NCBI GenBank assembly: GCA_003167275.1
Contig: PMTT01000502.1
Span: 1-57,490 of the forward strand
From: Bryobacterales bacterium
Lineage (GTDB): Bacteria; Acidobacteriota; Terriglobia; Bryobacterales; Bryobacteraceae
Length of the DNA: 57,490 nucleotides
Reading direction: 5' to 3'
Position 1 is the first letter of the stretch. Each line of letters begins with the position of its first letter. The position numbers and the translations under genes are program-made. A model generated the notes under the pieces. That model worked only from the letters and a program-made list of their open reading frames with translations. It had not been told where the DNA came from and did no database searches. Of the stretch, positions 15,789 to 44,122 are shown one piece after another.

Positions 15789-16330
15789 AAGTGGAGCGAG
15801 TGACGGAAGCGACGCGGGCGGCGAAGCAACAGGCCGTGCTGGCGGCCTTCCGCACGCTGGCCAGTGTGTCGGGCGCCTGTGCCGCGGCCAAGGTAGCGCG
15901 GAGGCAACATTACACCTGGCTCGAAGAGGATCCGGAATACGCGGCCGCATTCGAAAGGGCCAAGGATGAAGCGGCCCAGCAACTGGAAGATGAGGCGGTG
16001 AGACGGGCCTACAAGGGCTTTTTGGAGCCGGTGGTGTTCCAGGGGCAGTTCACCTATCCGGCCCTGGTGGATCCGGAGACGAACGATTGGAAGCTGGACG
16101 AAGAAGGCCACCGGATCCAATCGACCGAACCTCTCTGCATCCGCCGGCATTCGGACTCTTTGCTGATGTTCCTGCTGAAGGCATGGAGACCGGTCAAATA
16201 CCGCGAGAACTGGAAGGGCGAGTTGACCGTACCGCCGGCGGTCGCACTCACCAAGGAACGGCTCGCCAGGCTGAACGATGAGCAACTTGCCACCCTCGCT
16301 GAGCTTGCCGGCGTCCTTACCGGCGCCTGA
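15785..16330 (+). CDS. Terminase small subunit
   Basis: 181 aa; ATG in an ATGA overlap with the preceding gene. The N-terminal HTH region (ASVSGACAAAKVARRQHYTW then LEEDPEYAAAFERAKDEA) is typical of small terminase proteins that bind the packaging site. The C-terminal LTKERLARLNDEQLATLAEL is also seen in this group. It overlaps the large subunit by 53 bp, supporting the assignment. Confidence 0.82.
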   Translation: MKVERVTEATRAAKQQAVLAAFRTLASVSGACAAAKVARRQHYTWLEEDPEYAAAFERAKDEAAQQLEDEAVRRAYKGFLEPVVFQGQFTYPALVDPETNDWKLDEEGHRIQSTEPLCIRRHSDSLLMFLLKAWRPVKYRENWKGELTVPPAVALTKERLARLNDEQLATLAELAGVLTGA

Positions 16331-17735: not shown

Positions 17736-17849
17736 CTGCCGGGATAGAGCACGGGCCATCATGGTCGTTTTCCAGGGTGCAGTGTTGCCTGAAGTCGAGA
17801 GAATAACCAAGGCAAAAAGCGCCGGAGCCGAACGCGGGATCTCTCGGGT

Positions 17850-18083
17850 TCATCCCTGGCATTTGGGACAGCCCTCGAAACATTGGTCGCAATGGCGGGG
17901 CCCCCTGAACCCTACCCACGGGGGTTGTGGTGCTAACTCCAGGGCCTCAACCTGCCTGCGAGTCATCTCCGCGAGAAGCATACGGGTTCTCGCCGCGGTT
18001 GTCGCCACGGCAAGCTGATCATCAAACTGCTGATCGGCTTCGGCCTTTCGGCGGCGCGCTTCAATCACGTCTGGGTCCAGCAT
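17850..18083 (-). CDS. Small phage protein with C-terminal Cys cluster
   Basis: 77 aa with a good Shine-Dalgarno (ctggggga) before the ATG. A charged helix (IEARRRKAEADQQFDDQLA) precedes a C-terminal zinc-type motif CDQCFEGCPKC. It lies opposite to the late genes between TerL and portal and is divergent from the portal unit, sharing a gap that holds the second late promoter element. Function unknown. Confidence 0.6.
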   Translation of the reverse strand: MLDPDVIEARRRKAEADQQFDDQLAVATTAARTRMLLAEMTRRQVEALELAPQPPWVGFRGPRHCDQCFEGCPKCQG

Positions 18084-18096
18084 TCCCCCAGTTTAG

Positions 18097-18130
18097 CGGC
18101 AATTCCCCTTTCTAACTGCCGATGAATCAG
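18097..18130 (+). promoter_or_regulatory. Late promoter element, copy 2
   Basis: Second copy of the 34-bp element (gccgatgaatcag core, CGGCA and TGCCG arms with the same 15-bp spacing), 108 bp before the portal start codon. See copy 1. Confidence 0.65.
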
Positions 18131-18237
18131 TAGCGAGTGTGCTGCCGGCTTCCTTCCTCCGGCCGGTGCAGCCGTCCTGGCTTGAGCGGGCTAGGGACGG
18201 ACCCTTTCCGGTGGGGGCCAAGACACCGGATGAAAAC

Positions 18238-20451: not shown

Positions 20452-20467
20452 CACAGGGACGGGTGGC

Positions 20468-20557
20468 GTGCTCTGGCAAGCGAGCTACGATGCCTTCGCC
20501 GTGTGGCAGCAGGCCATCGTGGATTCGCAGCAGACCGGCGCGATCGAGCAGGTTTAA
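20468..20557 (+). CDS. Possible 29-aa phage protein
   Basis: GTG-started frame reading LWQASYDAFAVWQQAIVDSQ and ending 57 bp before the scaffold gene. The amphipathic, Trp/Gln-rich composition looks protein-like and differs from the other two frames. Very short, so tentative. Confidence 0.35.
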   Translation: MLWQASYDAFAVWQQAIVDSQQTGAIEQV

Positions 20558-20614
20558 CAGGATTCAGGATTTGGTGCCCAGCGGTGGGCCTGGTACGCCG
20601 CGCGAGGAAACTCA

Positions 20615-21535
20615 ATGGAAGCGATAGTGATTCCCCCGACGTCCGAGAAGACCGAGGCCGGTCCCACAGATCTGTCTATGGCAGACCTCCGGAAGATGGC
20701 GGAGAACAATTTTGAGCCGGTGGAAGCCAAGCCGGTAGAACCAAAAGTAGAAGCACCCGCGGCCGCGGCTGAGAAGCCGGCGGCCGAGACCACGCAACCG
20801 GCCTCGGAACCGGTGACCCAGGAGACGCACGAACCGGTACCGGCCGGCGTGCAGAAGCGGATCGACAAGGCCATCGCAAAACAGCGGGAAGCGGAACGGA
20901 AGCTCGCGGAAGCGGAAGCGAAACTGTCAGCCCAGGGAACGGCCCCTGCCAAAACAAACACCGAGACAGTGCAGCCTAAGGCCGAGGGAAAGCCCGACCC
21001 CACCAAGTTCACCGATTGGGACGCCTATCAGGAAGCGTTAATCGACTGGAAAGCCGATCAGCGGGATAGGACGCGCGCGCAAGAGGCGCAGCAACGCCAG
21101 CAGCAGGAACACGTCAAAACGATGACGGAATCCTGGCACGCCAGCGAAGCAACGGCCAAGCAGGCGCATCCCGATTACGTGGATCGCATGGCGGAGGTGA
21201 ACCATATCCAGGTGCCTCCGGCGCTGCAGCGAGCGATTCTGCTGTCCGACCATAAGGCGGAGCTGGCGTATGCGCTGGCGACGGCCCCGGCGGAACTGGA
21301 ACGCATCGTGGCGCTACCGCCCGAGAGAGCCATCTTGGAACTCGGCATGTTCGCCGGGAAGATGGCCGCCTCGAAAACCGAGTCTCCTAAACCCAAGACT
21401 TCTGCAGCAGCTCCACTTCCCAAGCCTCCGGCGAGTGTGGGCGGATCGGGCGCCGCGGCGCCGGCCGTCAACCTCGACACCTGCGATATGCGGACGTTTA
21501 AACGCGAGGCCAGGAAGTTGATCGAGCGCGATTAG
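20615..21535 (+). CDS. Probable scaffolding protein
   Basis: 306 aa, preceded by gaggaaactca. It has a low-complexity Ala/Pro/Glu N-terminal third, a long coiled-coil (VQKRIDKAIAKQREAERKLA onward), a helical middle part, and a basic C-terminal helix (FKREARKLIERD). Position between portal and coat, lack of globular motifs and the basic terminal helix match phage scaffolds, which template prohead assembly and then leave. Confidence 0.75.
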   Translation: MEAIVIPPTSEKTEAGPTDLSMADLRKMAENNFEPVEAKPVEPKVEAPAAAAEKPAAETTQPASEPVTQETHEPVPAGVQKRIDKAIAKQREAERKLAEAEAKLSAQGTAPAKTNTETVQPKAEGKPDPTKFTDWDAYQEALIDWKADQRDRTRAQEAQQRQQQEHVKTMTESWHASEATAKQAHPDYVDRMAEVNHIQVPPALQRAILLSDHKAELAYALATAPAELERIVALPPERAILELGMFAGKMAASKTESPKPKTSAAAPLPKPPASVGGSGAAAPAVNLDTCDMRTFKREARKLIERD

Positions 21536-21575
21536 AGAACGCGCCGGCAGCCGGCGCACGAAGGAAACGCAGCAA

Positions 21576-22817
21576 ATGCCGAACAACGCAGTCATTACCC
21601 CGCAGGTTTTCGCCAGACTCGTGCTGATGGACCTGGGCGGCGCCCTCAACGTGTGCCGCAATATGAGCAATGCCCTCTCTCCCGAATTCGGGAAGAAGAG
21701 CTTCAAGGTGGGCGCTTCGGTCGAAGTGCGCAAGCCGTACCGCTTCACGGTCAGCAAAGGGCTGAAGTACGATCCGCAGCCCCTCACCGACCAGGTGACA
21801 CCGATCAAGGTTAGCCAGGTGGCACAGGTTTCGTACGAATGGGACAGCGTCGAAAAGACGTTATCGATTCGCGAGGCGCGGGAGCTGTATGCCAAGCCTC
21901 TGGCTCTGGCGCTGGCTTCCACGATCAATTCGGAAGCCGCGCAATTCATCGCCCTGAACACCTGGAACCAGGCAGGCACACCGGGAACGACCCCCGCAGA
22001 CGAGCAGCCTTATCTGACCGCTGGAGACATCCTGATCGAGCAGGGACTTCCGGAAGAGGAGGAGCTGAACCTCATCATCAACCGGAAAATGTCGAGCACC
22101 TTCGTGCACGGCGTGAAAGCTCTGTATAACCCAGCCGGCGCCATTTCCAAGCAATGGAACCAGGGCAAGATGGTGGACTCGCTGGGCTACAACGTCTATC
22201 GCGATCAGACCATCTTCACCCGGACGGTGGGACCGTTGGGCGGAACTCCGCTGATCAATGGCGCGAACCAGACGGCAGACGGTGGCAACAACGGCACCAT
22301 GACTATCGCTTGCGATGGCTGGACCAGCGCCAACGCATCCCGGCTGAAGGCAGGCGACCGCTTCACGATCGCCGGCGTCTATTCGGTCCATCCGCAGACC
22401 CGCAAAACGACGGGCCGGCTGCAGTCCTTCGTCGTGCTGGCAGACACTTCGGACGCTTCGGGCGCCATGGCTGCCTTGCCGATCGCCCCGGCGATCACGC
22501 CCACCGGCCAGTACCAGAACGTGGATTCCGCTCCGGCCGATAATGCCGCCATGACGATCGACGGCGCCGCCAACGCGGTTTCGCCTCAAGGCCTGCTGAT
22601 CCACAAGAACGCTTTCGCCTTTGTCAGCGTGCCCCTGAGCGATCCGGAGCCTGGCATGGGCGCCCTGGTGACCAAGGAACGCGACGAAGAGACCGGCCTT
22701 TCGATTTCGATGATCCGGACCTTCGACGGCGTGTACCGCAAGGAAATCAACCGCGCCGACGTGCTGTACGACTTCGGCAAGCTATACGGGGAGATGGGCT
22801 GCGCGATCGAGGGCTAA
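21576..22817 (+). CDS. Major capsid protein (P22 coat-like)
   Basis: 413 aa with a strong Shine-Dalgarno (gaaggaaacg). It follows the P22 gp5 coat family: NAVITPQVFARLVLMDLGGA, SVEVRKPYRFTVSKG, SVEKTLSIREARELYAKPLA, and near the end FDGVYRKEINRADVLYDFGK. It has the HK97 fold with an inserted domain (WTSANASRLKAGDRFTIAGV region). Forms the icosahedral shell with the upstream scaffold. Confidence 0.93.
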   Translation: MPNNAVITPQVFARLVLMDLGGALNVCRNMSNALSPEFGKKSFKVGASVEVRKPYRFTVSKGLKYDPQPLTDQVTPIKVSQVAQVSYEWDSVEKTLSIREARELYAKPLALALASTINSEAAQFIALNTWNQAGTPGTTPADEQPYLTAGDILIEQGLPEEEELNLIINRKMSSTFVHGVKALYNPAGAISKQWNQGKMVDSLGYNVYRDQTIFTRTVGPLGGTPLINGANQTADGGNNGTMTIACDGWTSANASRLKAGDRFTIAGVYSVHPQTRKTTGRLQSFVVLADTSDASGAMAALPIAPAITPTGQYQNVDSAPADNAAMTIDGAANAVSPQGLLIHKNAFAFVSVPLSDPEPGMGALVTKERDEETGLSISMIRTFDGVYRKEINRADVLYDFGKLYGEMGCAIEG

Positions 22818-22871
22818 CGAGATCGGGGCCGTTTAGCGCGGCCCCACCCAATTTCAACAAGGAAAACTTCG

Positions 22872-23621
22872 ATGACAACTTTGAAAAACGTTTCTTTCGG
22901 CTTCCTGGCCATCGCTCTTGTGTGCGTTCCCGCCTTTGCGCAGACCCACACCCTCACGCAAACTTCGACCTCCGCCGCGGTCGCGGCAAACGACACCGTC
23001 ATTTCGGTCAGCTCGGCTACCAACATCCTGGCGCCGAATACCCTTAGCGGTGAACCGGGTTCCCTGCTCTTTGTGCAGGATGCCGGCAACGCCTCGGGCG
23101 AGAGCATGCGCGTGTTCTCCATCTCCGGTACCCGGATCACGGTCGCCCGGAACAGCGGCGGCAAGGCGACGGCACACGCCTCGGGCGCCATGGTGCTGGT
23201 GGGCGAGCCGAACTGGTTCTATGGCTCGGACCCATCCGGAAGCTGCGTGACGGCTTCTACGTTCGTGACACCGTATGTGAATACCGAGAACGGCCGTCAA
23301 TGGCTGTGCTCGACGGTCACTCTCACCTGGGTACCGGGATTCCAGAACACGAGCACCGCGGCGGGAGTGACCACGCTGGTGGCTTCGGCCGCCGGGGCGA
23401 TCCTGCCATCCGGCCCGTTGTTCCACGTCAACGGCACGGCCGCGATTACGGATTTCACCATCCCGGTGGGATTCAACGGCGGATCGTTCTGCATTATCGC
23501 CGATGCGGCGTACACCACCACGGCTACCAATAAGATCGCGTTCGCCTCGACAGGCGTGGCGGGCAAGGTGCAGTGCTGGGCCTACGACACGGCCGCGGCG
23601 AAGTTCTACGCATCGTACTAG
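22872..23621 (+). CDS. Phage protein with signal peptide, next to the coat gene
   Basis: 249 aa with a strong Shine-Dalgarno. The N terminus is a textbook signal peptide (LKNVSFGFLAIALVCVPAFA, then Gln), unusual for a gene in the head module. A beta-rich domain follows (TSAAVAANDTVISVSSATNI ... SISGTRITVARNSGGK), then a second domain with three cysteines. It could be an exported protein carried by the phage or a virion protein retaining a host-derived leader. The function is unknown. Confidence 0.7.
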   Translation: MTTLKNVSFGFLAIALVCVPAFAQTHTLTQTSTSAAVAANDTVISVSSATNILAPNTLSGEPGSLLFVQDAGNASGESMRVFSISGTRITVARNSGGKATAHASGAMVLVGEPNWFYGSDPSGSCVTASTFVTPYVNTENGRQWLCSTVTLTWVPGFQNTSTAAGVTTLVASAAGAILPSGPLFHVNGTAAITDFTIPVGFNGGSFCIIADAAYTTTATNKIAFASTGVAGKVQCWAYDTAAAKFYASY

Positions 23622-23680
23622 ACGGTTGTTTCTTCTGGGGCGCGGCTCCGAGTGCCGCGCCTCCATTTTCGAGGTGAATG

Positions 23681-23914
23681 ATGTACCCGAGTGTTCGTTA
23701 CCACGCAACTGAAGAGCCCCGCACCGTGAACAATCCGGAAGAGGACGAAGCGCTGGGTGAGGGCTGGGCGAGCTCGCCGGCGGATCATGGGATTGAGACC
23801 GCGCCTGGCGCGACACCGGATCCCGCGATCGCGGCGAACCGGCCGGCCGAACCGGAGCCTGTGGCCGAGCCGAAGCTTAGCGCCAAGGCACGGAAGATGC
23901 TGAGGCCGCAATGA
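23681..23914 (+). CDS. Small acidic phage protein
   Basis: 77 aa, Pro/Glu/Ala-rich, ending in the basic helix LSAKARKMLRPQ. The start is one of two adjacent ATGs after gaggtga. Short acidic proteins with a K-rich C-terminal helix often lie between coat and adaptor genes. No domain seen. Its stop overlaps the next start (ATGA). Confidence 0.6.
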   Translation: MYPSVRYHATEEPRTVNNPEEDEALGEGWASSPADHGIETAPGATPDPAIAANRPAEPEPVAEPKLSAKARKMLRPQ

Positions 23915-24618
23915 CGGTCCAGGATTTGATCGAGGCCTCCGCGCGGGAATGCGGGGCGCTCTTTGCAGGCCGGACACTGGCAACGGGCGAATACGCCAAC
24001 AGTATCATCGCTCTGAATGCGTTGCTGGGTCAGCTCTCGATTGAGGGATTGACGGTCTTTTCCATCGTGCGAGACGCACTGACTCTGACCGGCGCAACCG
24101 CCTACACGATCGGCACGGGCGCCACGTTCAACACGGCCAGGCCGGAGAAGATCCGGAGCGCGGCCGTAATCGTTTCAGGGGGCTCGATGCCCTGCCAGGT
24201 GGTCAGTCCGGAGAAGTTCAGCGAGATTATCGACCGCACGGTAACGGGCGCCTTCGCGGACTTCCTGTGTTGCGACTATGCCTTTCCCACTGCCAATATC
24301 TACCTCTGGCCGGCCCCGGCCTCGGGAACGCTGGAACTGTTCTCTGTGAAGCCGTTGGCCGCGGTGGCGAACCTGAGCGACACGATTTCTTTCCCGCCCG
24401 GGTACGAGACTGCCATCAAGTACAACTTGGCGGTGGTTCTCGCCACGGAGTTGCCGGGCGCGAAACTGACGGACGCCACGCTGAAGCTGGCGGAGACCAC
24501 GAAGGCGGCTGTGGGTGCAATGAACGCCGCGGCGCTGGGCGCTCCCGGTCCGCCGAGAGGCCCCGGTCCGCAACGGCCCTTGCAGGCGACTGACATCGAA
24601 CAGCAGGTGGCCAGATGA
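23911..24618 (+). CDS. gp4-like head-tail adaptor, paralogue 1 of 4
   Basis: 235 aa. It carries the shared motifs of this four-gene array: MTVQDLIEASARECG at the N terminus, TFNTARPEKI in the middle, CDYAFPTANIYLWP, and PPGYETAIKYNLAV. Family pattern and position after coat fit P22 gp4 (tail accessory factor), a helical adaptor that binds the portal after packaging. Coupled to both neighbours by ATGA overlaps. Confidence 0.75.
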   Translation: MTVQDLIEASARECGALFAGRTLATGEYANSIIALNALLGQLSIEGLTVFSIVRDALTLTGATAYTIGTGATFNTARPEKIRSAAVIVSGGSMPCQVVSPEKFSEIIDRTVTGAFADFLCCDYAFPTANIYLWPAPASGTLELFSVKPLAAVANLSDTISFPPGYETAIKYNLAVVLATELPGAKLTDATLKLAETTKAAVGAMNAAALGAPGPPRGPGPQRPLQATDIEQQVAR

Positions 24619-25262
24619 CGATCACGGCGCTGAATTTGATCACGGACGCGGCGCTGGCTCTTACGGCCATTCCTGCCGGTGGCACGCTGAACACCTCCGA
24701 GCAGAACGACGGCCTAGTTTCGCTCAACAAGATTTTCGACGCGTGGACAGATCTGATGCTGGTACAGCTCAGCGAAGTGACGGTCGCCACGGGCGGCGGC
24801 GGTCCTTTCACGACGGCCAGGCCGATCAAGATCGAAGCGGCCTATTGCTCCAGTACGAACCTGAGTTCGCCGGTGGAAGTCTGTTCGGCCGAACAGTGGG
24901 CGCAGATTGTGGATGAGTCGCGGAGCGGCACTTTCGCCACCAAGCTGTTTTGCGACTATGCCTTTCCGACCTCGAATATTTACGTTTGGCCCAAAGCGAC
25001 CGCGTCACTGACCCTATTGTGCTACCTGCCACTGACCCAGGTGGCCACGCTCTCGACCAGTCTGACGCTGCCTCCCGGCTATGCGCGCGCACTGACGTTC
25101 GCGCTGGCGCTCGACATGGCGCCGCAATATGGAAAGGCGATTGACCAGGCGCTGATGGTGCTGGCCGAGAAGGCCAAGCAGGACATCATGGCCACGAATC
25201 AGCGGATCTTCGGTGGCGCACCTCCGCCGCAACAGCCACTTCCGCAAATGGTGAAAGCATGA
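24615..25262 (+). CDS. gp4-like head-tail adaptor, paralogue 2 of 4
   Basis: 215 aa. Matches paralogue 1 at PFTTARPIKI, CDYAFPTSNIYVWP and PPGYARALTFALAL, and also in the C-terminal helix. ATGA overlap at both ends. The third motif is the least conserved of the four, so it may have a distinct partner or position in the adaptor. Confidence 0.75.
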   Translation: MTITALNLITDAALALTAIPAGGTLNTSEQNDGLVSLNKIFDAWTDLMLVQLSEVTVATGGGGPFTTARPIKIEAAYCSSTNLSSPVEVCSAEQWAQIVDESRSGTFATKLFCDYAFPTSNIYVWPKATASLTLLCYLPLTQVATLSTSLTLPPGYARALTFALALDMAPQYGKAIDQALMVLAEKAKQDIMATNQRIFGGAPPPQQPLPQMVKA

Positions 25263-25933
25263 CGGTACAAGACCTGGTAACGCGCGCATTGACGCTGGGT
25301 GGAGTCTGTGGGGCAGGCAGGACGCCGGGCCCGGAGCAGAGCAACCTGGCGCTGGCTTTGCTGCTGGCGATGCTGTCGAGCTGGGAGAACCAGCAGCTCT
25401 ACCTGTATTCGCTGGCGCGGAACAGCTATACGCTGGCGGCTAGTACGTCGCTCTATACGATCGGACCTTCGGGGGCGACGTTCACGGCCGCGCGGCCGGT
25501 GCGGATCGAAAGCGCCGGCGTTGCGATTCCGGCGGGGAGCGGAACGCTTTCCTTCCCGGTGAAGGTGTTGAACGCGGACGAATGGAACGATCTGCCCAAC
25601 AAGCTGGATACCAGCGCCCAGGTGAGGCACCTGTACGACGACTACGGCTTCCCGAATTCGTCTCTTTACGTGCACCCCGTGCCCTCGACGGTCTGCGCAC
25701 TGGAACTCTTCACCTGGCAGCCGCTGGCGACTTTCAGCTCTTTGGCGGATACGTTCGCAGGGTTTCCGGACGGGTACGAACGGGCAATCACCCATGGGTT
25801 GGCTGTCGAGTGCGCGCCGGCGTTTGGACGGCCGATCTCGAAGGAACTGGAGACCATCGCGCTGCAGGCGAAGGATAGTCTGCAGGCGAAGAACCGGATG
25901 CTGTTCCCGGCGCCTCCCGTGAAGGCGGCCTGA
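25259..25933 (+). CDS. gp4-like head-tail adaptor, paralogue 3 of 4
   Basis: 224 aa. Starts MTVQDLVTRALTLGG like paralogue 1, then TFTAARPVRI, DYGFPNSSLYVHP and PDGYERAITHGLAV, ending in a helical KDSLQAKNRMLF segment. ATGA overlap with paralogue 2. Confidence 0.75.
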   Translation: MTVQDLVTRALTLGGVCGAGRTPGPEQSNLALALLLAMLSSWENQQLYLYSLARNSYTLAASTSLYTIGPSGATFTAARPVRIESAGVAIPAGSGTLSFPVKVLNADEWNDLPNKLDTSAQVRHLYDDYGFPNSSLYVHPVPSTVCALELFTWQPLATFSSLADTFAGFPDGYERAITHGLAVECAPAFGRPISKELETIALQAKDSLQAKNRMLFPAPPVKAA

Positions 25934-25934
25934 G

Positions 25935-26924
25935 ATGGCGATCACGTTTGTCGACGAGGAGACGCCTACAGGGACGATCGACGGGGTGAACGCGGCGTTC
26001 AGCCTAGGGCACACGCCCGTGCCGGCGTTGAGCCTGCTCCTGGTGGCGAACGGTGTTACCCAGTCACAGGGCGTGGATTATACTCTGGCGGCGAACGTCA
26101 TCACCTTTCTCTCGGGTTCCATTCCTGGGATCGGCGAGACGCTGGAGGCCTGGTACCGATACGGGGATGGGGTTGTATCTTCGAGCCCGGGCGTGATGAC
26201 TGTGCAGGCCGCCATCATCGCGGCGTTGCGCATGAGCACGGTGATTTCCCCGGGTCAGGTTCCCAACGGGTCGGAGCTGCAGGAGGGGGCGGACACGCTC
26301 CGGAGGATGACGGACCTGTGGTCTACGGATCGCGGGAACATCTTCACGACGCGGATCGACCTGTACACCCTGACGCCTGGAAAGCAGACCTACACGATCG
26401 GGGTGGATCCAACGGGCTTTCAGACTCCGGACCTGGTGGGCGCGCGGCCGCTGCGGATTGTGCGGGCCAACGTGCTGTTCCAGACGACGCCCACGGTTCG
26501 CCGGCCGATGGTGCTGTTGAGCGAGCTGCAATGGGCGAACAAGCGCCTCCAGCAGGTGTCTACCATTCCGCTGCAGCTTTACAACGACGGGGCGAATCCG
26601 CTTTCGACGTTCTACTTTTACCCGATTCCGGACGCGGCCTATCAGATCGAGCTATACACCTGGCAGGCGCTGGCGGGGTGGGTGGGCTCGGGCGACAACG
26701 TAGTGGTGCCTCCGGGTTACGAGGAGGCGATTATTTCGAATCTGGCGGTCCGTTTGGCACTGGGGTTCGGCAAGCCGGTGGGCCAGGAGCTCGCCATGCT
26801 GGCCTCGCAGTCGAAGGCCTCCATTCAAAGCCTGAACACTCCGCGGTTGAGACTGCGGACGGACCCGGCGTTGCGCGGCCGGAGAAGCGGCCTCTACAAC
26901 TGGATGTCCGGAGAGGTGGAGTGA
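25935..26924 (+). CDS. gp4-like head-tail adaptor, paralogue 4, with extra N-terminal domain
   Basis: 329 aa. The first 85 residues are an added beta domain common in phage structural proteins (DEETPTGTIDGVNAAFSLGH, VANGVTQSQGVDYTLAANVI). The rest is the shared adaptor domain: VQAAIIAALR, VGARPLRI, FYFYPIP, PPGYEEAIISNLAV. The fusion suggests this copy sits at the distal end of the adaptor stack or contacts the tail. Confidence 0.75.
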   Translation: MAITFVDEETPTGTIDGVNAAFSLGHTPVPALSLLLVANGVTQSQGVDYTLAANVITFLSGSIPGIGETLEAWYRYGDGVVSSSPGVMTVQAAIIAALRMSTVISPGQVPNGSELQEGADTLRRMTDLWSTDRGNIFTTRIDLYTLTPGKQTYTIGVDPTGFQTPDLVGARPLRIVRANVLFQTTPTVRRPMVLLSELQWANKRLQQVSTIPLQLYNDGANPLSTFYFYPIPDAAYQIELYTWQALAGWVGSGDNVVVPPGYEEAIISNLAVRLALGFGKPVGQELAMLASQSKASIQSLNTPRLRLRTDPALRGRRSGLYNWMSGEVE

Positions 26925-26925
26925 G

Positions 26926-28581
26926 GTGGCGAAGTTTCCGGGGTTCATTGGCGGATCGTATCTCAGCGCGTCGGTAAACGCGGACTGCCAGCGGACCATC
27001 AACCTGTTCCCGGAAGTCATCGAGTCGGGCGACGGGGCGAATATCGGAATGCTCCGGGGGACGCCGGGGCTGGCGTTACTGCTGACTTTGCCAACCACAC
27101 CGGTGCGCGGATTGTGGGCGGGCGGGGCGCCTTTGTCGGGCGCCGCGCGGCTGTTCGCTGTGGGCGGGTCGAAGCTTTACGAAATATCGAGCGCCTGGGT
27201 GGCCACGCTGCTGGGCGACGTCGGTGACGACGCCGGCCACACGCCGGTTCAGATTTTCCCGGACGGAAACCAGCTTGGGATCGTCTCGGCCGGCAACTTC
27301 TATCTGGCGGACGGGATCTCGGTCTACCAGCCGAACTTCATCAGCGCGTCCGGATTCCTGAGCACGGCGGGCACGGCTGTGACCTGGTCGGAGGGGACTC
27401 TCTTCGATCCGAGCTGGGTGGGGCAGAACATCCGGATCGGCGGGGTGGGTGGGACGGTCTACACGATCGCGAGCGTGGCGGACCCGAACGACATGGTGCT
27501 GACCGCTACGGCCGGCGCCAACCTGGACGTGGAATTCACGATGTTCTACGGGAGCCCGGTAACCGCCAAGACGGGCGCCTTTCTGGATGGCTACTTCGTG
27601 GCGGCCACTCCGGATTCGAAGATGTACCAGCTTTCGGGGATCAACCTGTTCGAGGAATGGGATCCGCTGGATTCGGCGATCAAGCAAAGCTATCCGGATA
27701 ATATTGGTGCCGTTCTGGCGGACCATCAAGAGCTGTATCTCTTCGGCGAAAGTACTACCGAGGTGTGGCAGGACACGGGCGGAAGCACCACCAACACCTT
27801 CCCATTCCAACGGGACCCTGGGGCCTGCATGTCGATTGGCACGGGCGCGCCGTGGTCTTGCGTCTCGATGCGCGATGGGGTGGCCTGGATCAAGGCGGAC
27901 ACCCGCGGCGGGCCGGTGGCGTTCTACGCCAAGGGGTATCAGCCGGAGCGGGTTTCGACGCACGCGATCGAGCAGGCCTGGGCGGCGTATTCGACGGTGA
28001 TGGATGCGCAGTGCTTTGTGTACGAGCTGGATGGTCACGAGTGCTGGCAGATCAATTTCCCCACGGCGAACACCACTTGGGTGTATGACCGGACGACTTC
28101 CCTGCAAATGGGCAAGCCGATGTGGCACGAAAAGACCAGCTACAACGGAACTACCTTCGACCGTCACAGAGCGCGCTGCCACGCTTACGTGTGGGGGCAA
28201 CATGTCGTCGGGGACTTTGCGAACGGCAAGGTCTATGCGATGTCCACCTCGGCTTATGACGATGCGGGGACTCCGATCTACTGCATCCGGACCTGCCCGC
28301 ATATGAACCAGGACCGGCTGATGCAGTTCTTCAGCCGGCTGACGGTGAACCTGGAGACCACCACGAGCGCGACTACGGTGCTGACCCTGGACTGGTCGGA
28401 CGATGGCGGGCACACATGGCAGACAGCGATCAACCTGACGATTCCGGCGGTGTTCGACTTCCTGGCGTACTTCAACCGCCTGGGGAAATCGAGGGACCGG
28501 GTCTTTCGATTGACGTGGGTGGGGACGAATAAGAAGGCGCTGATCGATGTTTCCGTGGATCACACGGTGGGAGTGGCATAA
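26926..28581 (+). CDS. gp10-like packaged-DNA stabilisation / tail protein
   Basis: 551 aa, GTG start. The opening FPGFIGGSYLSASVNADCQR and TINLFPEVIESGDG, then GTPGLALL, are typical of the P22 gp10 / phage stabilisation family, which follows gp4 and forms the tail hub that plugs the portal. A long beta-rich body fits (propeller-like repeats such as DGNQLGIVSAGNFYLADG). Gene order supports it. Confidence 0.85.
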   Translation: MAKFPGFIGGSYLSASVNADCQRTINLFPEVIESGDGANIGMLRGTPGLALLLTLPTTPVRGLWAGGAPLSGAARLFAVGGSKLYEISSAWVATLLGDVGDDAGHTPVQIFPDGNQLGIVSAGNFYLADGISVYQPNFISASGFLSTAGTAVTWSEGTLFDPSWVGQNIRIGGVGGTVYTIASVADPNDMVLTATAGANLDVEFTMFYGSPVTAKTGAFLDGYFVAATPDSKMYQLSGINLFEEWDPLDSAIKQSYPDNIGAVLADHQELYLFGESTTEVWQDTGGSTTNTFPFQRDPGACMSIGTGAPWSCVSMRDGVAWIKADTRGGPVAFYAKGYQPERVSTHAIEQAWAAYSTVMDAQCFVYELDGHECWQINFPTANTTWVYDRTTSLQMGKPMWHEKTSYNGTTFDRHRARCHAYVWGQHVVGDFANGKVYAMSTSAYDDAGTPIYCIRTCPHMNQDRLMQFFSRLTVNLETTTSATTVLTLDWSDDGGHTWQTAINLTIPAVFDFLAYFNRLGKSRDRVFRLTWVGTNKKALIDVSVDHTVGVA

Positions 28582-32529: not shown

Positions 32530-33018
32530 GTGACGTTCGAGCGAACCACGGATATGCGGCTGGTGAGGGAGATTGTGACGCATCCCCGTGTCTGGCCATG
32601 GGTGTCGGACGATTACTCGAGTCCACGGGAAGAATGGCGGCCGGCGGAGCATCCGGGGATCTGGTACGTGGCGGTGCGCGATGACTCGATGCCGTTTGGC
32701 GACTGCCAGCCGGCGGAGCTGCTCGGGCTGGTGACGTTCATCCCGCAGAACGGGGCGTGCTGGGAGTTCCACGCGTGCCTGCTGCCGAATGCCGGGACCA
32801 GGCGGGCGCACGCTGCCATTTTGGGCAGTATCCGGTGGATCTGGGAGCGGACGGAATGCCGGCGGGTGGTAACGAACGTTCCGGCGTTCAACCGGCAGGC
32901 GATGAGATGCGCGCGGGCGATCGGGCTGGAATCGATCGGAGTCAACAGGGTGAGCTACATGAAAGACGGAAAGTTGCATGACCAGGTGCTGTTTGGCCTG
33001 AGCCCGGAGGAAAAGTAG
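32530..33018 (+). CDS. P22 gp14-like GNAT-fold protein
   Basis: 162 aa, GTG start. Pattern of the DUF2824/gp14 family: VREIVTHPRVWPWVSDD, then a GNAT core (ELLGLVTFIPQNGACWEFHA, RRAHAAILGSIRWIW, VPAFNRQAMRCARAIGLESI). In P22 gene 14 lies at the same place, before the ejection proteins. Acetyltransferase activity is not established; the acetyl-CoA loop looks weak. Confidence 0.78.
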   Translation: MTFERTTDMRLVREIVTHPRVWPWVSDDYSSPREEWRPAEHPGIWYVAVRDDSMPFGDCQPAELLGLVTFIPQNGACWEFHACLLPNAGTRRAHAAILGSIRWIWERTECRRVVTNVPAFNRQAMRCARAIGLESIGVNRVSYMKDGKLHDQVLFGLSPEEK

Positions 33019-34122
33019 ATGCCACTGGCAGCGATCATTCCCGCGGCGATCGGGGGAGTGACTTCCATCATCGGCGGGATCCAGGGCGCCTCAGCGGCCA
33101 AGAACGCCGCGGCGGCGCAACAGGCGGCAGCCAACAAAGCGGCCGGCCTGGTGCAGGACACCGCGGCCACGGTCAATCCGTGGATCACCCAGGCGGCGGC
33201 AAACGCGGGCAGCGGGGTGAGCACGGCGGCGGCCGGGGCCGGGTCGGACGTATCGAAGGCGGCGGCACTGGGTCAGATCGGGACCATGCAGGGGCTGGGG
33301 ACGTCGCAGGACACATTGAATCCCTACATCGCCATGGGGCAAGGGACCGCGGGCACCCTGGCAACGGACCTGGCGCCGGGCGGATCGCTGACTCAGACGA
33401 TGAGCGCTTCGCAAATGGAAGCCAACGATCCGGGGTATGCGATGCGGATCAAGCAAGGGGCTTTGGCGCTGCAGAGAGCCCAGGCGGCCACGGGTGGCGG
33501 CGGCGGCGGCGGAGCTGCCAAGGCGTTGGTGGACTATTCGCAGAACGCGGCATCGAGCGAGTACTCGAACGCCTTCACGAGGTTCCAGCAGTCCCAACAG
33601 CAGCAATACAACATGCTGGCGGGGACGACGTCGCTGGGAATCAACCCGTCGATCGCCTCTTCCCAGCAGGACACCCAGGCGGGCGAATATGACGCCAGCC
33701 TCGGGATGACGGCCGCGCAGACGGGAGCCCAGTTGGGGATGACAGCGGCGGAATACGGCGGGAACGCGGAGCAAACGGCCGCACAGGAGACGGCCAATAA
33801 CACCATGGGGGCGGCTACCCAGGCCGGCAACTACTACACCCAGGCGGGGAACGCACAGGCGGCGGGTGATGTGGGTTCGGCGAATGCGTGGAACGGGATG
33901 CTATCGGGAATCGGCAAGGCGGCCAACACTTACGGGACGCTGAGCACGCTGGGGCAGATGGGGGCGCAAGATGTATTCGCACCGATCACGCCGTACAGCG
34001 GGCCATCGTCCTGGAATCCGTCTCCGGGAGTAGCGCCGCCGGTGACGTACAACCCAGGCACGATGCCATCGCTGCCTCCGTGGCTGAGCAACCCAGCTCC
34101 GGCGCCGGGGTGGAACCAATGA
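33019..34122 (+). CDS. DNA ejection protein, gp7 position
   Basis: 367 aa. N-terminal Gly/Ala/Ile hydrophobic segment (LAAIIPAAIGGVTSIIGGIQ) then a long Ala/Gln-rich helical region without Cys. This composition and its position (after gp14, first of three) match P22 gp7-type internal virion proteins that leave with the DNA and form a conduit across the envelope. Low-complexity sequence limits family assignment. Confidence 0.72.
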   Translation: MPLAAIIPAAIGGVTSIIGGIQGASAAKNAAAAQQAAANKAAGLVQDTAATVNPWITQAAANAGSGVSTAAAGAGSDVSKAAALGQIGTMQGLGTSQDTLNPYIAMGQGTAGTLATDLAPGGSLTQTMSASQMEANDPGYAMRIKQGALALQRAQAATGGGGGGGAAKALVDYSQNAASSEYSNAFTRFQQSQQQQYNMLAGTTSLGINPSIASSQQDTQAGEYDASLGMTAAQTGAQLGMTAAEYGGNAEQTAAQETANNTMGAATQAGNYYTQAGNAQAAGDVGSANAWNGMLSGIGKAANTYGTLSTLGQMGAQDVFAPITPYSGPSSWNPSPGVAPPVTYNPGTMPSLPPWLSNPAPAPGWNQ

Positions 34123-35948
34123 TCGACCCATCCATCGCATTGCAGGTGCGTCCTCCCGAGATTCCGGACATGAGCGAAGGAATCGTCCGCGGCATGCAGT
34201 TGAAGGGCATGCAGCAGCAGCAGCAGGCGGGCGCCCTCGATCTACAGCAAAAGCAGATCGAGATGCAAGACCAGGCGACGATGCGCCAGGCGTACATGGA
34301 TTCGGGCGGGGACATGGGGAAGTTCCAGCAGCTTCTGATGACCAGGGGAGTGAGTCCGAAGGCCATTACGCAGGTGCAACAGCAGATCCTGGCGACCCAG
34401 GAATCTCACGCGAAGCTGACCGACACGCAGTTGCAGAACCAGCAGAAGCAGGTGCAGGCGATCGGGAGCGTGGCACAGGGTTTGCTGAACCAACCGGATG
34501 AGCAGACGCGAGCGGGACAATGGGGATCCGCGCGCCAGGCGATGCTGCAGATTCCGGGAGTGACTCCGGACCAGGTGCCGACCCAGTATCCAGGGCAGCA
34601 GTGGGTGACAGACCACCGGAACGGGGCGATCACGGCCCAGCAGTACGCCGAGAACGAGCAGAAGAACCGGACCGTTGGGGCGGAAGAGACCACCGCGGCC
34701 GCGCGGGCACTGACTGCCAAGACCTCGGCCGACAAGCTGACGGCGGAGCTGCCCGGTGTTACGGCGGACGCGCAGGCGAAGGCGCGCCAGAACGTGATCG
34801 CGCAACTGACTACGGCGCCAACGCCGGCGGCGTATAACCAGATCCTGAACGATGCCAAAGTGCCTCACGGGGCGCTGCCCTCGGCCCAGCAGGTATTCGA
34901 CGCGACCGGCAAGCCGATTCCAACGGCGATGGCGAGCTTACGGCAGTTGGGAATGACTCCGGACCAGCAGGCTGTGACGGGCCAGGCGGCGGCGAATGCG
35001 GCTCAGACCGCGGCCCACAACAAGGTGGAAGAGCAGCAGGGCGCGGGGCGGTTGTCAGTCGAGCAGGGGCGGCTGGGGATCGAGAACAAGAAGTTCAACG
35101 CGACCATCGGCGCGGGACTGGATGCCAACGGGCAACCCGTGCAGCCGGTAATGGGACCGGATGGAAAGCCGGCGGTGAACCCCACGGCCGCGGCGATCGC
35201 CGGTTACCAGATTCCTCCACCGAGCCCGCGCACGCTGGCGAGTCCGGCGGGTCAGAACTTGTTGCGCCAGGTCCTGGCGGTGAATCCATCGTTCGATGCG
35301 ACCCAGTTTCCGAAGCGGAACAAGATCACGCAGGATTTCAGCGCTTCCGGCGCTTCGGGCAAGGCGATCACCTCGACCGATACGGCGCTGGCTCATCTCA
35401 ACACGATCAGCACGGCAGGGCAGGCGATGAAGAGCGGAGACGTGCAGATGCTCAACCGGCTGGCGAATTCGCTGGGGGCGCAAGTCGGGCAGAGTCCACA
35501 GATCACTTACGACGCGATCGTGCAGACTGTGGCTCCGGAGGTCTCGAAAGCGGTGATCGGGGGAACTGGGGGAGAAGCGGACCGGGCGAAGATGGCGGCG
35601 AACTTCTCATCGAACCTTTCCGATGCGCAGCGAGAGGGGGCCATTGGAGCGACTGCGCAGTTGCTGGGAGCGCGGTATCACAAGATGGCGCAGGGCTATG
35701 AAGCCGATATGGGCAAGCCGTTGGAGCGGCAACTCAGCCCCGAGTCACAGGGCGTGCTGGGCAGGTATTCGCCGGCGCCGGCGCGCGGGCCGGTGCAGCC
35801 TCTGCAGGGCGGGCAGGCGGGCGCGCTTCCCCAGGGCGGCGGCAAACTGATCGATAAGGCGACGGTACAGCAGTTCTACCAAGCGGCGGGCAACGATCCC
35901 GTGAAGGCGCGCGCGCTGGCCGTGCAGAACGGCTGGAAGGTGCAGTAA
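34119..35948 (+). CDS. DNA ejection protein, gp20 position
   Basis: 609 aa from an ATGA-coupled start (MIDPSIALQVRPPEIPDMSE). Highly helical, Gln/Ala-rich coiled-coil N-terminal half (QQQQQAGALDLQQKQIEMQD), with a more ordered C-terminal half (LAHLNTISTAGQAMKSGDVQ, then MAQGYEADMGKPLERQLSPE). Fits the second P22-type ejection protein by size class, composition and order. Confidence 0.72.
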   Translation: MIDPSIALQVRPPEIPDMSEGIVRGMQLKGMQQQQQAGALDLQQKQIEMQDQATMRQAYMDSGGDMGKFQQLLMTRGVSPKAITQVQQQILATQESHAKLTDTQLQNQQKQVQAIGSVAQGLLNQPDEQTRAGQWGSARQAMLQIPGVTPDQVPTQYPGQQWVTDHRNGAITAQQYAENEQKNRTVGAEETTAAARALTAKTSADKLTAELPGVTADAQAKARQNVIAQLTTAPTPAAYNQILNDAKVPHGALPSAQQVFDATGKPIPTAMASLRQLGMTPDQQAVTGQAAANAAQTAAHNKVEEQQGAGRLSVEQGRLGIENKKFNATIGAGLDANGQPVQPVMGPDGKPAVNPTAAAIAGYQIPPPSPRTLASPAGQNLLRQVLAVNPSFDATQFPKRNKITQDFSASGASGKAITSTDTALAHLNTISTAGQAMKSGDVQMLNRLANSLGAQVGQSPQITYDAIVQTVAPEVSKAVIGGTGGEADRAKMAANFSSNLSDAQREGAIGATAQLLGARYHKMAQGYEADMGKPLERQLSPESQGVLGRYSPAPARGPVQPLQGGQAGALPQGGGKLIDKATVQQFYQAAGNDPVKARALAVQNGWKVQ

Positions 35949-38900
35949 TGGCCGATCTCTTCGACCAGGTACACCAGGAGGCATCGGCGCCCAAGGGCGA
36001 TCTGTTCGACCAGGTGCACGCGGAGGCCTCGGCGCCCAGTTCCACACCCGGCTTCTGGTCGCGGCTGTGGCAAGACGCGGTAGTCAACCCCGCTCACCAG
36101 GTGGCGTCCGGAGCGGTGGGTGCTGAGGCCTCTGCGAACAAACTGACGGCGAACACCTTCGATCTGCTGGATAAAGCGGCGGACTATATCGCCAAGACCA
36201 CCGGAACGAATAAGGGCGGAGGCTTCAAGGCGATCGCGGATTACGCGCGGCAGAGCCAGCAGCAGGAAGAGCAGACGGCGCAGCAGCTCTCCGGCGGCAA
36301 GCAGGACTTCATGAGCCAGGTGTACCGCGGCGGAACACAGGGCGCGCTAGAGATCCCTCAGTATGCGATAGGGGCACACGTGCTGGGTCCGGTTGCCGGC
36401 GTGGCGGCGGTCAGTGGATTGAGTGAGTCGGATAAGGGGTGGGAGACAGCGCTGCAGGCGGCCGCCACGGGCGGGGCGACGGGTGGGGCGCTGATGGTCA
36501 TGGGGCCGGCCTCCCGGATGATCCGATTGACGGGCGCGGGGGCGATGACCTACGCACAGGCGCGGCTGCAGGGCGCGGACAATGCTACTGCGCTGGCACA
36601 TGCCACCACGATGGGCGGGATGAGCGCGATGCCGGCGGGCGGGGTTGGCGTGAAGGATATGCTGCCGGAAGGGCCGGTGTTCAAGAGCACGTTGAACCCA
36701 GTGCAGCAATCGGCGGTGGATTTCCTGCAAGACAATGACGTGCCGTTGAACGCCGGCACTGTGACCGGCAACAAGTTTCTGAAGGGCGCGCAGGCGCTGG
36801 CGCAGACGCAACCGCTGGGAGCGACTACGGCGATGCGGGCGCAGCGGGCCACCGAGCAGGGACTGACCCGGCTGTCGGGCGAGCTGGCGGACCAGGCGCA
36901 TCCAACGCCAGTGACTCCGGAGTCAGCGGGGGAGGCGGTACCGGCGGCGCTGCAAGCCAAGATCGAGAATCTGGGACTGGCGGCCGACGCTTCGTATGCG
37001 AAGGCCTGGGAGGCGCGCAACGATCCGGCACACACCTACAACATGCCGGTGAGAACAGAGCAGACACCCGTTCTGGATACGGCCGGCAAACCCACGGGGC
37101 AGATGCAGGATGCCCCGACGATGAAACAGGTGAACATGCCTGTGGACGTGCGGGATATCAAAGCGGCGCTGAAACCGGTGTGGGACGAAATGCAGTGGAT
37201 GCCGGCCAGCGATCGCGCGAGCTCGGCGGGCTATACGGCCGTCAAAAACATCCTGGAGGGCGATGACTTCATTCCCGCGTGGCAAGCCGAGAAGGGCTTG
37301 GGCGGCCTGAAGAACATGGCCCGGGTGGACACCACCTCCGGAGTGAGGAACGCGAGCCAGGGAATCGGCGCGTCGATCATTCCGGACCTGCAAGACAACA
37401 TCGACGCCGCGGTGGCGAACACCGGGCCCGAAGCGCTCAAGGGATTGCAGCAGGGGCGCGCCTTCCACGCGAACAAGATGGAAGTGGCGGACGTGGCGGA
37501 CGATCTCCGCAAAGAGCCGGTGCAGGCGTTCAACCAACTCACCTGGAAGCAGGACACGGGGATAGACTTCCTGCGGAAGATCAACGAGCAAGCGCCGGAG
37601 ACGATGCCGCAGGTGGGGCGGGCGTTCGTGCAGCAGCTCTTCGATAAGGCGACGGCGGAGGGCGGCTTCGGGCGATCGCGGAATCTGCTGAACACGTGGG
37701 AGAATTTGGGACCGCAGACGAAAGCGCTGCTCTTTAAGAATCCCGGACTGCGCGACGGCCTGGATAACTTCTTCCAGGGCCAGGCCATGGTAGCGGAGAA
37801 TCCCAACCCGAGCGGCACAGCCGTGGTGGGCTCGCTGATTCCAGGAGCGGGGCTGATGATTGCGAGCCCGGCAGCCGGTGGTGCGTGGCTGCTCGGTGGG
37901 TATGCCGCATCGAAGCTGCTCTTCACTCCGCGCGGTGTGCAGATGTTGACCGAAGGGATGAAAACGCCGGCAACGGGCGCGCGGGGCATCGTGTTGGGGA
38001 ACGCCATTGCGAAGATGGCGAAGGATCAAGGGGGCGGTCCCGACGAGCCGCCAAACCCTGAGGGGCCGGCGCCGAGCTCGCCATCGACGCCGGCAGGACC
38101 TGAAGGCGGAGGGCCGAAGTTATCGCCGTTGGCACAGGCGGCGCGCGATCGGTTTGACGCGGCGCAGCGGGATACCGCCCCGGCGGTAACAAGCGCACCA
38201 AATGGCCACGCGGTGATTCACGTGACAGGACCGGACGGACAGCACCTGGTGTTGACCGCAAGCAAGAATTCGGCGGAGGGATACCAGGCCTTCGACCCGA
38301 CGCGGCCGGACAGGGCAGACCTCCACAACCTGCAGCCCGACAAACTGGATAGCGCGCTGGGCTCGCCGGCATGGCGGCAGGCGCTGGCCGAAGAAGGCTT
38401 TACGCCCGAGAACGTGACCGGGTTCACCTCTTTCTACCCGGGCAAGGGCGCGGTGCGGCCGGGAATGACGTACGTAGCGCCGGAGTTCCGCCGGCAAGGC
38501 CTCGCCACGGCGATGTATGACGCGGAAAAGGGGCAGTTACCCAAGGGCGCGACCATAGGGCCAGGCACTCAGAGACCGGACGGCAGGGCATTCCGCGCGG
38601 CGTATGACAGAGGTACCCCTTCGGGGGAATTGCCAGCCAGGCCACCGAGTGGTATAGGAGTAAGTGATGTCACAAACGCCGGAGTGGACGCCCGAACAAC
38701 TGGAGAAGGGAGCCCGGATCCAGAAGCGCTTCGACCAGGCTTCGGAACAAGCGAAGAAGCGCTTGCTCAAGCGGTCGGCGGCGCCGAAACCACCATCCGT
38801 GTCCCTGGGCAACCTCAGCGGTACCCCGCCCGTTACGAAGTCCGGGAACTAGCGGACATCCAGCCCTCGCATAGCGGTCGGACCTTCCAACCCAATTCGA

Positions 38901-39952
38901 AGTACACGATTCGCAACGATCGCGACTACACGCGCGCGGAGAACCAGGGCAAGATCGTCAACTGGAGCCTGCCTTCGGAATTCGACCCGGCGTACATGCT
39001 GACTGAGAGTCCCACGGCCTCGGATGGCGCGCCGGTGATTGACGACACGGGGAACGTGCTGGGCGGCAACGGCCGCAGCATGATCCTCGACCGGGTCTAC
39101 GGAAGCAACCCACAAGGCGCGGCGGCTTACAGGAAGCTGCTGGTGTCGAAGGCTTCCCAGTTCGGCATCGATCCCGCGCAGATCGAATCCATGAAACAGC
39201 CGGTGTTGGTGCGGCGGATCGCGGATCCGGATCTAGCTGGCGGCAAGCAGGGCGCCGTGACGGACTTCAACACGGTGGGTACCGCGTCCTTGCGTGGTGC
39301 CGAGAAAGCGATCGCCGATTCACGTCGGGTGTCGGATGGGACGCTGGATCATATCGCCGGCCGGTTGGAGGCGGGCGGACAGGATGCCACGCTCTCGCAG
39401 GTGTTGGAGGGCGGCGGCGGCAACGAGGTTCTGCAGCGGCTGATTGACGATGGTGTGATTGCTCCCCAGGAGATGGCGCAGTATGTGGACCGCGGGGCAC
39501 TAACTGCGGAGGGCAAGGCGCGAATCGGCAAGCTGATGCTGGGGCGGTTCTTCCGGGATCCCGCTCAGTTGGATTCGACGCCGGCGAGCATCCGGAACAA
39601 GCTGGAGCGGATCGCGGCGCCCTTGGCCAAGGTGGAAGGGCGCGGGGACTGGAGCCTGGCCGAACCCTTGCAGCGGGCCATGGACCTGCTGGAAGACGCG
39701 CGGGCGCACGGGGCGAAGAACCTGGACGATGCGGTGAGTCAGTCGGGGCTGTTCGGCGGGCAGACCTACACGCCCGAGACGGTGACACTGGCGAAGGCGC
39801 TGCAGGATGTGAACCCCAACGATCTGACGAAGGCGGTCCGGCAGTATGCGCAGGACGCGGCGGATGCGGAGCAGGGGCCTGGGCTGTTCGGTCCACCTCC
39901 CACCCGGGCGGAGGCCTTCGAGGCGGCATTCTCGCCGAAGGGGAAGAAATGA
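35948..39952 (+). CDS. Large ejection protein (gp16 position) with GNAT-like and DdrB/ParB-like domains
   Basis: 1334 aa, TAATG-coupled. The N terminus holds a duplicated DLFDQVHxEASAP motif. Hydrophobic segments follow (GAHVLGPVAGVAAVSGLSES; ATGGATGGALMVMGPASRM), then a long helical body. Residues about 755-890 are GNAT-like (GMTYVAPEFRRQGLATAMYD), and after a linker residues about 950-1090 match the DdrB-like ParB domain (ARYEVRELADIQPSHSGRTF, NDRDYTRAENQGKIVNW, VLGGNGRSMILDRVYGSN). A helical tail ends the protein. Domains of this kind are found in polyvalent proteins injected with phage or plasmid DNA to counter host defences. Position says it is injected; the counter-defence role is inference. 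Confidence 0.8.
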   Translation: MADLFDQVHQEASAPKGDLFDQVHAEASAPSSTPGFWSRLWQDAVVNPAHQVASGAVGAEASANKLTANTFDLLDKAADYIAKTTGTNKGGGFKAIADYARQSQQQEEQTAQQLSGGKQDFMSQVYRGGTQGALEIPQYAIGAHVLGPVAGVAAVSGLSESDKGWETALQAAATGGATGGALMVMGPASRMIRLTGAGAMTYAQARLQGADNATALAHATTMGGMSAMPAGGVGVKDMLPEGPVFKSTLNPVQQSAVDFLQDNDVPLNAGTVTGNKFLKGAQALAQTQPLGATTAMRAQRATEQGLTRLSGELADQAHPTPVTPESAGEAVPAALQAKIENLGLAADASYAKAWEARNDPAHTYNMPVRTEQTPVLDTAGKPTGQMQDAPTMKQVNMPVDVRDIKAALKPVWDEMQWMPASDRASSAGYTAVKNILEGDDFIPAWQAEKGLGGLKNMARVDTTSGVRNASQGIGASIIPDLQDNIDAAVANTGPEALKGLQQGRAFHANKMEVADVADDLRKEPVQAFNQLTWKQDTGIDFLRKINEQAPETMPQVGRAFVQQLFDKATAEGGFGRSRNLLNTWENLGPQTKALLFKNPGLRDGLDNFFQGQAMVAENPNPSGTAVVGSLIPGAGLMIASPAAGGAWLLGGYAASKLLFTPRGVQMLTEGMKTPATGARGIVLGNAIAKMAKDQGGGPDEPPNPEGPAPSSPSTPAGPEGGGPKLSPLAQAARDRFDAAQRDTAPAVTSAPNGHAVIHVTGPDGQHLVLTASKNSAEGYQAFDPTRPDRADLHNLQPDKLDSALGSPAWRQALAEEGFTPENVTGFTSFYPGKGAVRPGMTYVAPEFRRQGLATAMYDAEKGQLPKGATIGPGTQRPDGRAFRAAYDRGTPSGELPARPPSGIGVSDVTNAGVDARTTGEGSPDPEALRPGFGTSEEALAQAVGGAETTIRVPGQPQRYPARYEVRELADIQPSHSGRTFQPNSKYTIRNDRDYTRAENQGKIVNWSLPSEFDPAYMLTESPTASDGAPVIDDTGNVLGGNGRSMILDRVYGSNPQGAAAYRKLLVSKASQFGIDPAQIESMKQPVLVRRIADPDLAGGKQGAVTDFNTVGTASLRGAEKAIADSRRVSDGTLDHIAGRLEAGGQDATLSQVLEGGGGNEVLQRLIDDGVIAPQEMAQYVDRGALTAEGKARIGKLMLGRFFRDPAQLDSTPASIRNKLERIAAPLAKVEGRGDWSLAEPLQRAMDLLEDARAHGAKNLDDAVSQSGLFGGQTYTPETVTLAKALQDVNPNDLTKAVRQYAQDAADAEQGPGLFGPPPTRAEAFEAAFSPKGKK
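38667..38852 (+). CDS. Nested out-of-frame gene inside the large ejection gene
   Basis: 61 aa in another frame, starting at an ATG 6 nt after GGAG (tataggagtaagtg), one of the best Shine-Dalgarno sequences in the late region. The product begins MSQTPEWTPEQLEKGARIQK and is helical and charged, unlike a random shadow frame. It overlaps the linker between the GNAT-like and DdrB-like domains of the main protein, where constraint is low. Function unknown. Confidence 0.4.
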   Translation: MSQTPEWTPEQLEKGARIQKRFDQASEQAKKRLLKRSAAPKPPSVSLGNLSGTPPVTKSGN

Positions 39953-43873: not shown

Positions 43874-44122
43874 TCAAGCCCTCCCTTGTTTGACCGCTTT
43901 CGCGAACTCTTGCAGCTCCTGGTGAAGGTCGGTCATCATTTGCAGGTCTGCGTCGGTGGGCTCGGATTCCGGAGCGAATGCCTGGATCACCCGGAACAGG
44001 ATGGATTCAGCGCCCGCGTAGAACGCACGGCGCATCTCTCTTCGCTGGGTGGCACCGTGCGAATCGTTGAACACCATCCGGGAGAATTCATTCCACTGCT
44101 CTGCCATTAACTGTCGTTTCAT
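43874..44122 (-). CDS. Small helical phage protein
   Basis: 82 aa (MKRQLMAEQWNEFSRMVFND...). The segments QRREMRRAFYAGAESILFRV and DLQMMTDLHQELQEFAKAV recur in small early proteins of many temperate phages; function unknown. Its start overlaps the preceding gene's stop, in the leftward early operon. Confidence 0.65.
   Translation of the reverse strand: MKRQLMAEQWNEFSRMVFNDSHGATQRREMRRAFYAGAESILFRVIQAFAPESEPTDADLQMMTDLHQELQEFAKAVKQGRA

Follow-up and report, generated by a model that had tools for sequence, protein, structure and literature searches.

A remote P22 gp16 homologue fused to a DdrB-like ParB module and a GNAT-like domain in a Bryobacteraceae prophage: a candidate carrier of early-acting cargo

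Does an ejection protein of a short-tailed phage also carry cargo that acts early in infection? The question is raised by a stretch of 57,490 nucleotides (nt) from a Bryobacterales bacterium (assembly GCA_003167275.1, contig PMTT01000502.1; hereafter the window), in which an intact open reading frame (ORF) at 35948-39952 of the + strand, with an ATG start and no internal stop, encodes a protein of 1334 amino acids (aa). A first-pass annotation made from the letters alone gave these coordinates and this length exactly, and both motifs that it quoted are found in the protein; it read the product as a P22 gp16-type ejection protein fused to DdrB-like ParB and GNAT-like domains. We find that the fusion stands, that related phages carry the same chassis with and without the DdrB module, and that the protein is of the polyvalent type, as had been proposed, with several unrelated activities in one chain near the late genes. 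We give a probability of roughly 0.7 to the reading that a P22 gp16-type ejection protein serves here as a delivery vehicle for cargo acting early in infection. The protein is divided as follows.

35948..39952, + strand: gp16-position ejection protein with cargo (P0001), from ORF and translation
35948..36667, + strand: variable N-terminal chassis segment, residues 1-240
36671..38080, + strand: conserved chassis, residues 242-711, remote P22 gp16 homologue, from IMG/VR identity, hidden Markov models (HMMs) and hhalign
38195..38617, + strand: GNAT-like domain, about residues 750-890, with coenzyme A (CoA) motif VAPEFRRQGLATAMYD, from transitive homology via locus L148
38765..39946, + strand: whole DdrB module, residues 940-1333, comprising the ParB domain and a conserved helical C-terminal extension
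38816..39220, + strand: DdrB-like ParB domain PF18763, residues 957-1091, with RD, GGNGR and AYR motifs, from Pfam (E 1.2e-20)

Both gene order and remote homology support the P22 gp16 position claimed for this protein. Like gp16 in the 14-7-20-16 cassette of P22, it is encoded by the last gene of a cassette (gp14-like, gp7-like, gp20 position, gp16 position), and the stop codon of the preceding gene runs into its ATG (TAATG at 35946-35950). Residues 242-711, which are 53-67% identical to IMG/VR relatives, aligned with the P22 gp16 family collinearly over 380 columns when a profile of 12 relatives was used (hhalign E 9.6e-7, probability 91%); 20 column-shuffled profiles gave E values of 0.12-0.88 and three unrelated families gave 0.03-0.65. 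Single-sequence hhalign of the chassis against P22 gp16 failed, and family alignments alone worked. By this profile evidence the segment 242-711 and P22 gp16 are remotely homologous. P22 gp16 itself differs in having 609 aa and neither a DdrB module nor a GNAT-like domain. Moreover, a Foldseek search with the chassis model returned phage proteins of similar size, one of them named 'Injection protein' (E 3.6e-6). Residues 1-240 share 45% with the protein of L045 (L-numbers denote loci of relatives), the middle part of which is different, bear a visible likeness to that of L084, and are unrelated in L032-L034.

The DdrB-like ParB domain, also claimed beforehand, was recovered by the profile search well above the curated cut-off (74.3 against 27.6 bits); no other PF18763 match occurs in the genome (11.5 Mb), and 14 control genomes gave none. 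Together with its helical extension the domain forms one unit of about 390 aa in 32 distinct proteins, across which the ParB active-site motif is kept. R992, G1040, N1041, R1043 and Y1061 are invariant across 12 aligned modules, and the RD motif, GGNGR (with R1043) and Y1061 align and are invariant or nearly so among modules; we infer that these include the pocket arginine, acidic residue and extra-helix tyrosine named by Iyer et al. (2017; PMC5512222). The AlphaFold model of the module has a predicted local distance difference test score (pLDDT) mostly above 90, and a Foldseek search of a viral structure library with the cargo model found DdrB-like phage proteins, at E values down to 1.3e-21.

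The GNAT-like domain is a weaker claim than the DdrB module, and stands in part. Direct profiles stayed below cut-off (Pfam Acetyltransf_7, E 0.0094 with the full chain as query and 7e-4 with the region cut out; GNAT profile match for the region, 20.3 bits against a cut-off of 27). The region nevertheless carries RRQGLA, fitting the CoA motif R-x-x-G-x-A, and a motif scan of all loci examined found a comparable stretch in one other protein, the 2479-aa gp16-position protein of L148, which also has SLT and DdrB-ParB domains. An alignment of more than 100 residues joins the GNAT-like region to residues ~1475-1590 of that protein (phmmer E 1.1e-6), and its score of 129 compares with 67 for the best of 5000 shuffles. 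Because the matching L148 region itself clears the Acetyltransf_1 cut-off (26.6 against 20.7 bits), the presence of a GNAT-related domain in the 1334-aa protein is supported by homology and not by the predicted fold, the AlphaFold model having low confidence across it (pLDDT roughly 30-70). The sole match to the GNAT region in the viral contig collection, in L065, shares 26 residues without the CoA motif and was set aside as chance.

How the cargo relates to its carrier is best seen among relatives. The whole 1334-aa protein as query found nothing in the genome contig collection and one locus in the viral contigs, and one broad alignment of relatives was too diverse for use in scanning; HMMs for the DdrB module and for the two chassis halves, c2 (residues 242-491) and c3 (491-711), which form the two sides of an internal cargo slot in relatives, were run on all loci. 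The named relatives come from Acidobacteriota metagenome-assembled genomes, mostly Bryobacterales, of the same family as the window genome. The chassis occurs without cargo in L032 (706 aa, ending just past the linker) and L074 (612 aa); with a C-terminal DdrB module in the window protein, L033 (1090 aa), L035/L063 (1235 aa) and L115 (1235 aa); with the module between c2 and c3 in L038, L039 and L059 (about 1100-1290 aa); and with another C-terminal extension in L084 (884 aa) and L135 (1433 aa). Since close relatives do without it, the cargo is optional, and on the shared chassis it is also movable. The other cargos of L084, L135, L087, L118 and L176 gave no match to Pfam. A single origin of the DdrB module on the chassis may be compatible with the DdrB tree; we did not count the gains, because the tree does not separate one from several. 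For a census of the position, viral contigs were scanned with gp7 and gp14 alignments, so that loci were chosen irrespective of DdrB; the sample is biased towards gp7 and gp14 sequences akin to those of this phage. Of the 65 distinct ORFs at the gp16 position, 56 entered the count, being complete or already showing DdrB, and 15 of them have the module; proteins with it range from 976 aa upward, those without it have a median near 550 aa.

Several single loci deserve mention in their own right. In L026 (8866-10829) a zeta-toxin-like domain precedes DdrB-ParB, the module being split over two overlapping frames by a frameshift or a sequencing error. The chassis protein of L085 (12710-15088) has an internal duplication of c2 and c3 pieces. 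The segment after the internal DdrB of L038 (10174-10686) has an LYHGTS motif that recalls polyvalent ADP-ribosyltransferases, but we do not claim such an enzyme there, the ART-PolyVal match having an E value of only 0.14.

DdrB polyvalent proteins, including fusions to SLT domains, were already known from 2017; the P22 gp16-type carrier and the variation of its cargo appear to be new here. The proteins of Iyer et al. (2017; PMC5512222), for which injection with DNA was proposed, include one from an Acinetobacter prophage in which DdrB-ParB is fused to a lysozyme (SLT) domain. They resemble the present one as multidomain phage proteins in late genes that combine DdrB-ParB with an unrelated activity; here, in contrast, DdrB-ParB is joined to a P22 gp16 homologue, and this chassis is seen to carry the cargo, to lack it or to hold it at another place. 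The terms 'P22' and 'ejection' do not occur in the main text of that paper, and our literature search found no description of a P22 gp16 homologue as DdrB carrier, nor of a with/without and two-position pattern. Closer in setting are gp47 of Alcaligenes phage Piluca and its counterpart in Acinetobacter phage TPWB-05 (both phages cultured; epsilon15 gp16-like), large proteins of a podovirus internal-protein cassette with a ~390-aa DdrB module on the C-terminal side. Their N-terminal part, however, is of the SLT/epsilon15 type and not this chassis, and no GNAT match was found in them; epsilon15 gp16 itself has 634 aa and no DdrB. P1 DdrB has the ParB core in common with the present protein (41% identity over residues 992-1090). 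It is a head protein, detected in the virion by 39 peptides, and is listed as a helper in bringing DarB into the capsid (PMC9024508). Unlike the window protein, it is not known to us as a fusion with an ejection protein. Its partners, moreover, are DarA, DarB, Hdf and Ulx, and no gene of this prophage is large enough for DarB (the longest ORF of the window has 1334 aa; P1 DarB, 251 kDa; PMC9024508).

What, then, might the fusion do? In P22, gp16 is part of the virion and, once ejected, associates with and acts at the inner membrane, the site of DNA entry (PMC10883804, PMC8954989). From this behaviour it is a reasonable inference that the 1334-aa protein, too, is delivered into the cell with the DNA. 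By homology residues 242-711 are the conserved conduit chassis, behind which the GNAT-like domain and the DdrB-ParB module of about 390 aa follow via Pro/Gly-rich linkers. Presumably packaged in the head, the protein would, as in P22, be ejected before the DNA together with gp7 and gp20; the ejected proteins would complete a path across the inner membrane, and the C-terminal cargo would reach the cytoplasmic mouth of the conduit, where DNA emerges. There the DdrB-ParB domain, its GGNGR pocket intact, would most likely act at once on incoming DNA or nucleotides, before phage gene expression, a host protein being a possible substrate of the GNAT-like domain; a block to restriction would be one possible outcome, not an established one. 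As the prophage has no DarB-sized gene, DdrB more plausibly works by itself on DNA or nucleotides. Related ParB/Srx proteins have nuclease and NTPase activities, and Iyer et al. favour sensing or degradation of nucleoside triphosphates (NTPs) by the DdrB-ParB domain (PMC5512222).

Several points weigh against delivery of early-acting cargo by this protein. The AlphaFold model of the chassis is moderate (mean pLDDT 60). A conserved transmembrane anchor was sought in the chassis and not found, a hydrophobic segment near residue 625 being unconserved. The module stands before c3, and not at the C-terminus, in three relatives, so that a single fixed topology cannot be assumed. The GNAT-like domain is absent from all other chassis relatives. 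The confident model of the DdrB module found no match below E 1 in a fold search of the PDB and, to our knowledge, no activity has been established for any DdrB-ParB domain.

Among alternatives, the one that the first-pass annotation had favoured, counter-defence, fares best and stays a candidate. In its specific form the DdrB module would shield incoming DNA from type I restriction enzymes, like P1 Dar, and Ulx, DarB and DdrB of P1 have indeed been linked to EcoB/EcoK protection (PMC12810830). Related gp16-position proteins also point this way: that of L103 (8075-16396; 2773 aa) has a DarB-like strawberry-notch helicase (AAA_34, Helicase_C_4) and methylase-like domains, and that of L165 (8902-15072; at least 2057 aa) has a 2H phosphoesterase-like domain, which also matches the anti-CBASS (cyclic oligonucleotide-based antiphage signalling system) protein Acb1 (E 1.1e-4, below cut-off), with methylase, restriction-helicase-like and SNF2-like stretches. 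In the window protein, however, the DdrB domain comes without methylase or helicase, its P1 counterpart is described as a helper of DarB loading (PMC9024508) while a DarB-sized ORF is missing from the window, and the view of the domain favoured by Iyer et al. is NTP sensing or degradation (PMC5512222). HsdR is encoded by 36 of 101 genomes of the family, and no match was found in the lysogen genome; this distribution permits counter-restriction and does not support it. We regard shielding from restriction as possible but doubtful.

Handling of the phage's own DNA, in which the ParB domain would nick, bridge or help circularise the entering genome, or aid the start of replication or integration, would suit the nuclease and NTPase activities of ParB/Srx proteins (PMC5512222), but the module is missing from about three quarters of related phages, and we hold this role to be unlikely. 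A role confined to virion assembly, in which the module would serve to pack or dock the ejection protein, or partners, in the head and do nothing in the infected cell, recalls the help that P1 DdrB gives DarB in joining the capsid (PMC9024508); yet the complete chassis exists without the module (L032, L074), which makes the module dispensable for chassis packaging, the prophage lacks a DarB partner, and the ParB active-site motif is kept throughout, all of which renders this role improbable. Chance adjacency or an assembly artefact joining two genes, conceivable in a draft of 957 contigs, is refuted by the recurrence of the two-part architecture in independent metagenome contigs and metagenome-assembled genomes (L033, L035, L063, L115).

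Delivery by a gp16-type carrier, if correct, has consequences beyond this locus. Proposals that polyvalent proteins are injected have drawn mainly on their domain make-up and neighbouring genes; in the present case the cargo shares a chain with the homologue of a known ejected protein. Nature supplies the comparisons, a chassis loaded or bare and cargo in two positions, that make both delivery and the function of DdrB-ParB directly testable, and the relatives also show which sites tolerate fusions, provided that P22-type gp16 can carry cargo. The chances seem to us even that short-tailed phages use their gp16-type ejection protein as an all-purpose delivery platform, exchanging early effectors (DdrB, GNAT-like, possibly ADP-ribosyltransferase, others) in two defined slots, one following c3 and one separating c2 from c3, without loss of the conduit function.

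The window is a prophage, flanked on both sides by host-type genes, in an 11.5-Mb draft genome of the Bryobacteraceae (Acidobacteriota). Its remaining features are these.

6946-9390: MacB/FtsX permease, host-type flank gene
16278..28581, + strand: P22-type head and neck genes (PHROGs)
16278, 18139, 20615, 21576 and 26926, + strand: terminase, portal, scaffold, coat and Hc3/gp10, respectively (PHROGs)
32530..33018, + strand: gp14-like protein, itself of the GNAT family (PHROG 651, E 3.4e-11; PF13302 above cut-off)
33019..34122, + strand: gp7-like DNA ejection protein, 367 aa (PHROG 598 'DNA ejection', E 6.4e-11)
34119..35948, + strand: gp20-position protein
42981-43730: small serine recombinase in the prophage
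50638-53184: hybrid histidine kinase, host-type flank gene

The order terminase, portal, scaffold, coat, Hc3, spike, gp14-like, gp7-like, gp20 position, gp16 position parallels P22 genes 2-1-8-5-4-10-26-14-7-20-16. Single-sequence hhalign of the gp7-like protein against P22 gp7 failed, and its assignment rests on PHROG 598. The gp20-position gene extends to 33888 in the ORF list; its likely start is 34119, where an ATGA overlaps the gp7 gene, and the alignment of relatives, which begins at residue 79 of the long ORF, supports this start. An ETF_alpha match in the gp20-position protein (E 0.009) was judged chance. In L034 (2863-5253), L035 (3525-5417) and L043 (3034-4731) the gp14-like GNAT domain has no gene to itself and forms the C-terminal end of a longer ORF lying upstream, possibly a genuine fusion.

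Four consecutive genes (23911, 24615, 25259 and 25935; span 23911-26924) all match PHROG 12985 and are tandem paralogues in the P22 gp4 position, the last two also matching the head-tail adaptor Ad3 weakly. Upstream of the terminase, a sigma-factor-like protein (13307-13999; PHROG 351, E 8e-19) is a possible late-gene regulator. Downstream of the recombinase lie a perfect 106-nt direct repeat (44119-44224 and 44697-44802, 578 from start to start) and a second repeat pair of 72 nt, 79% identical, at 43799 and 44433.

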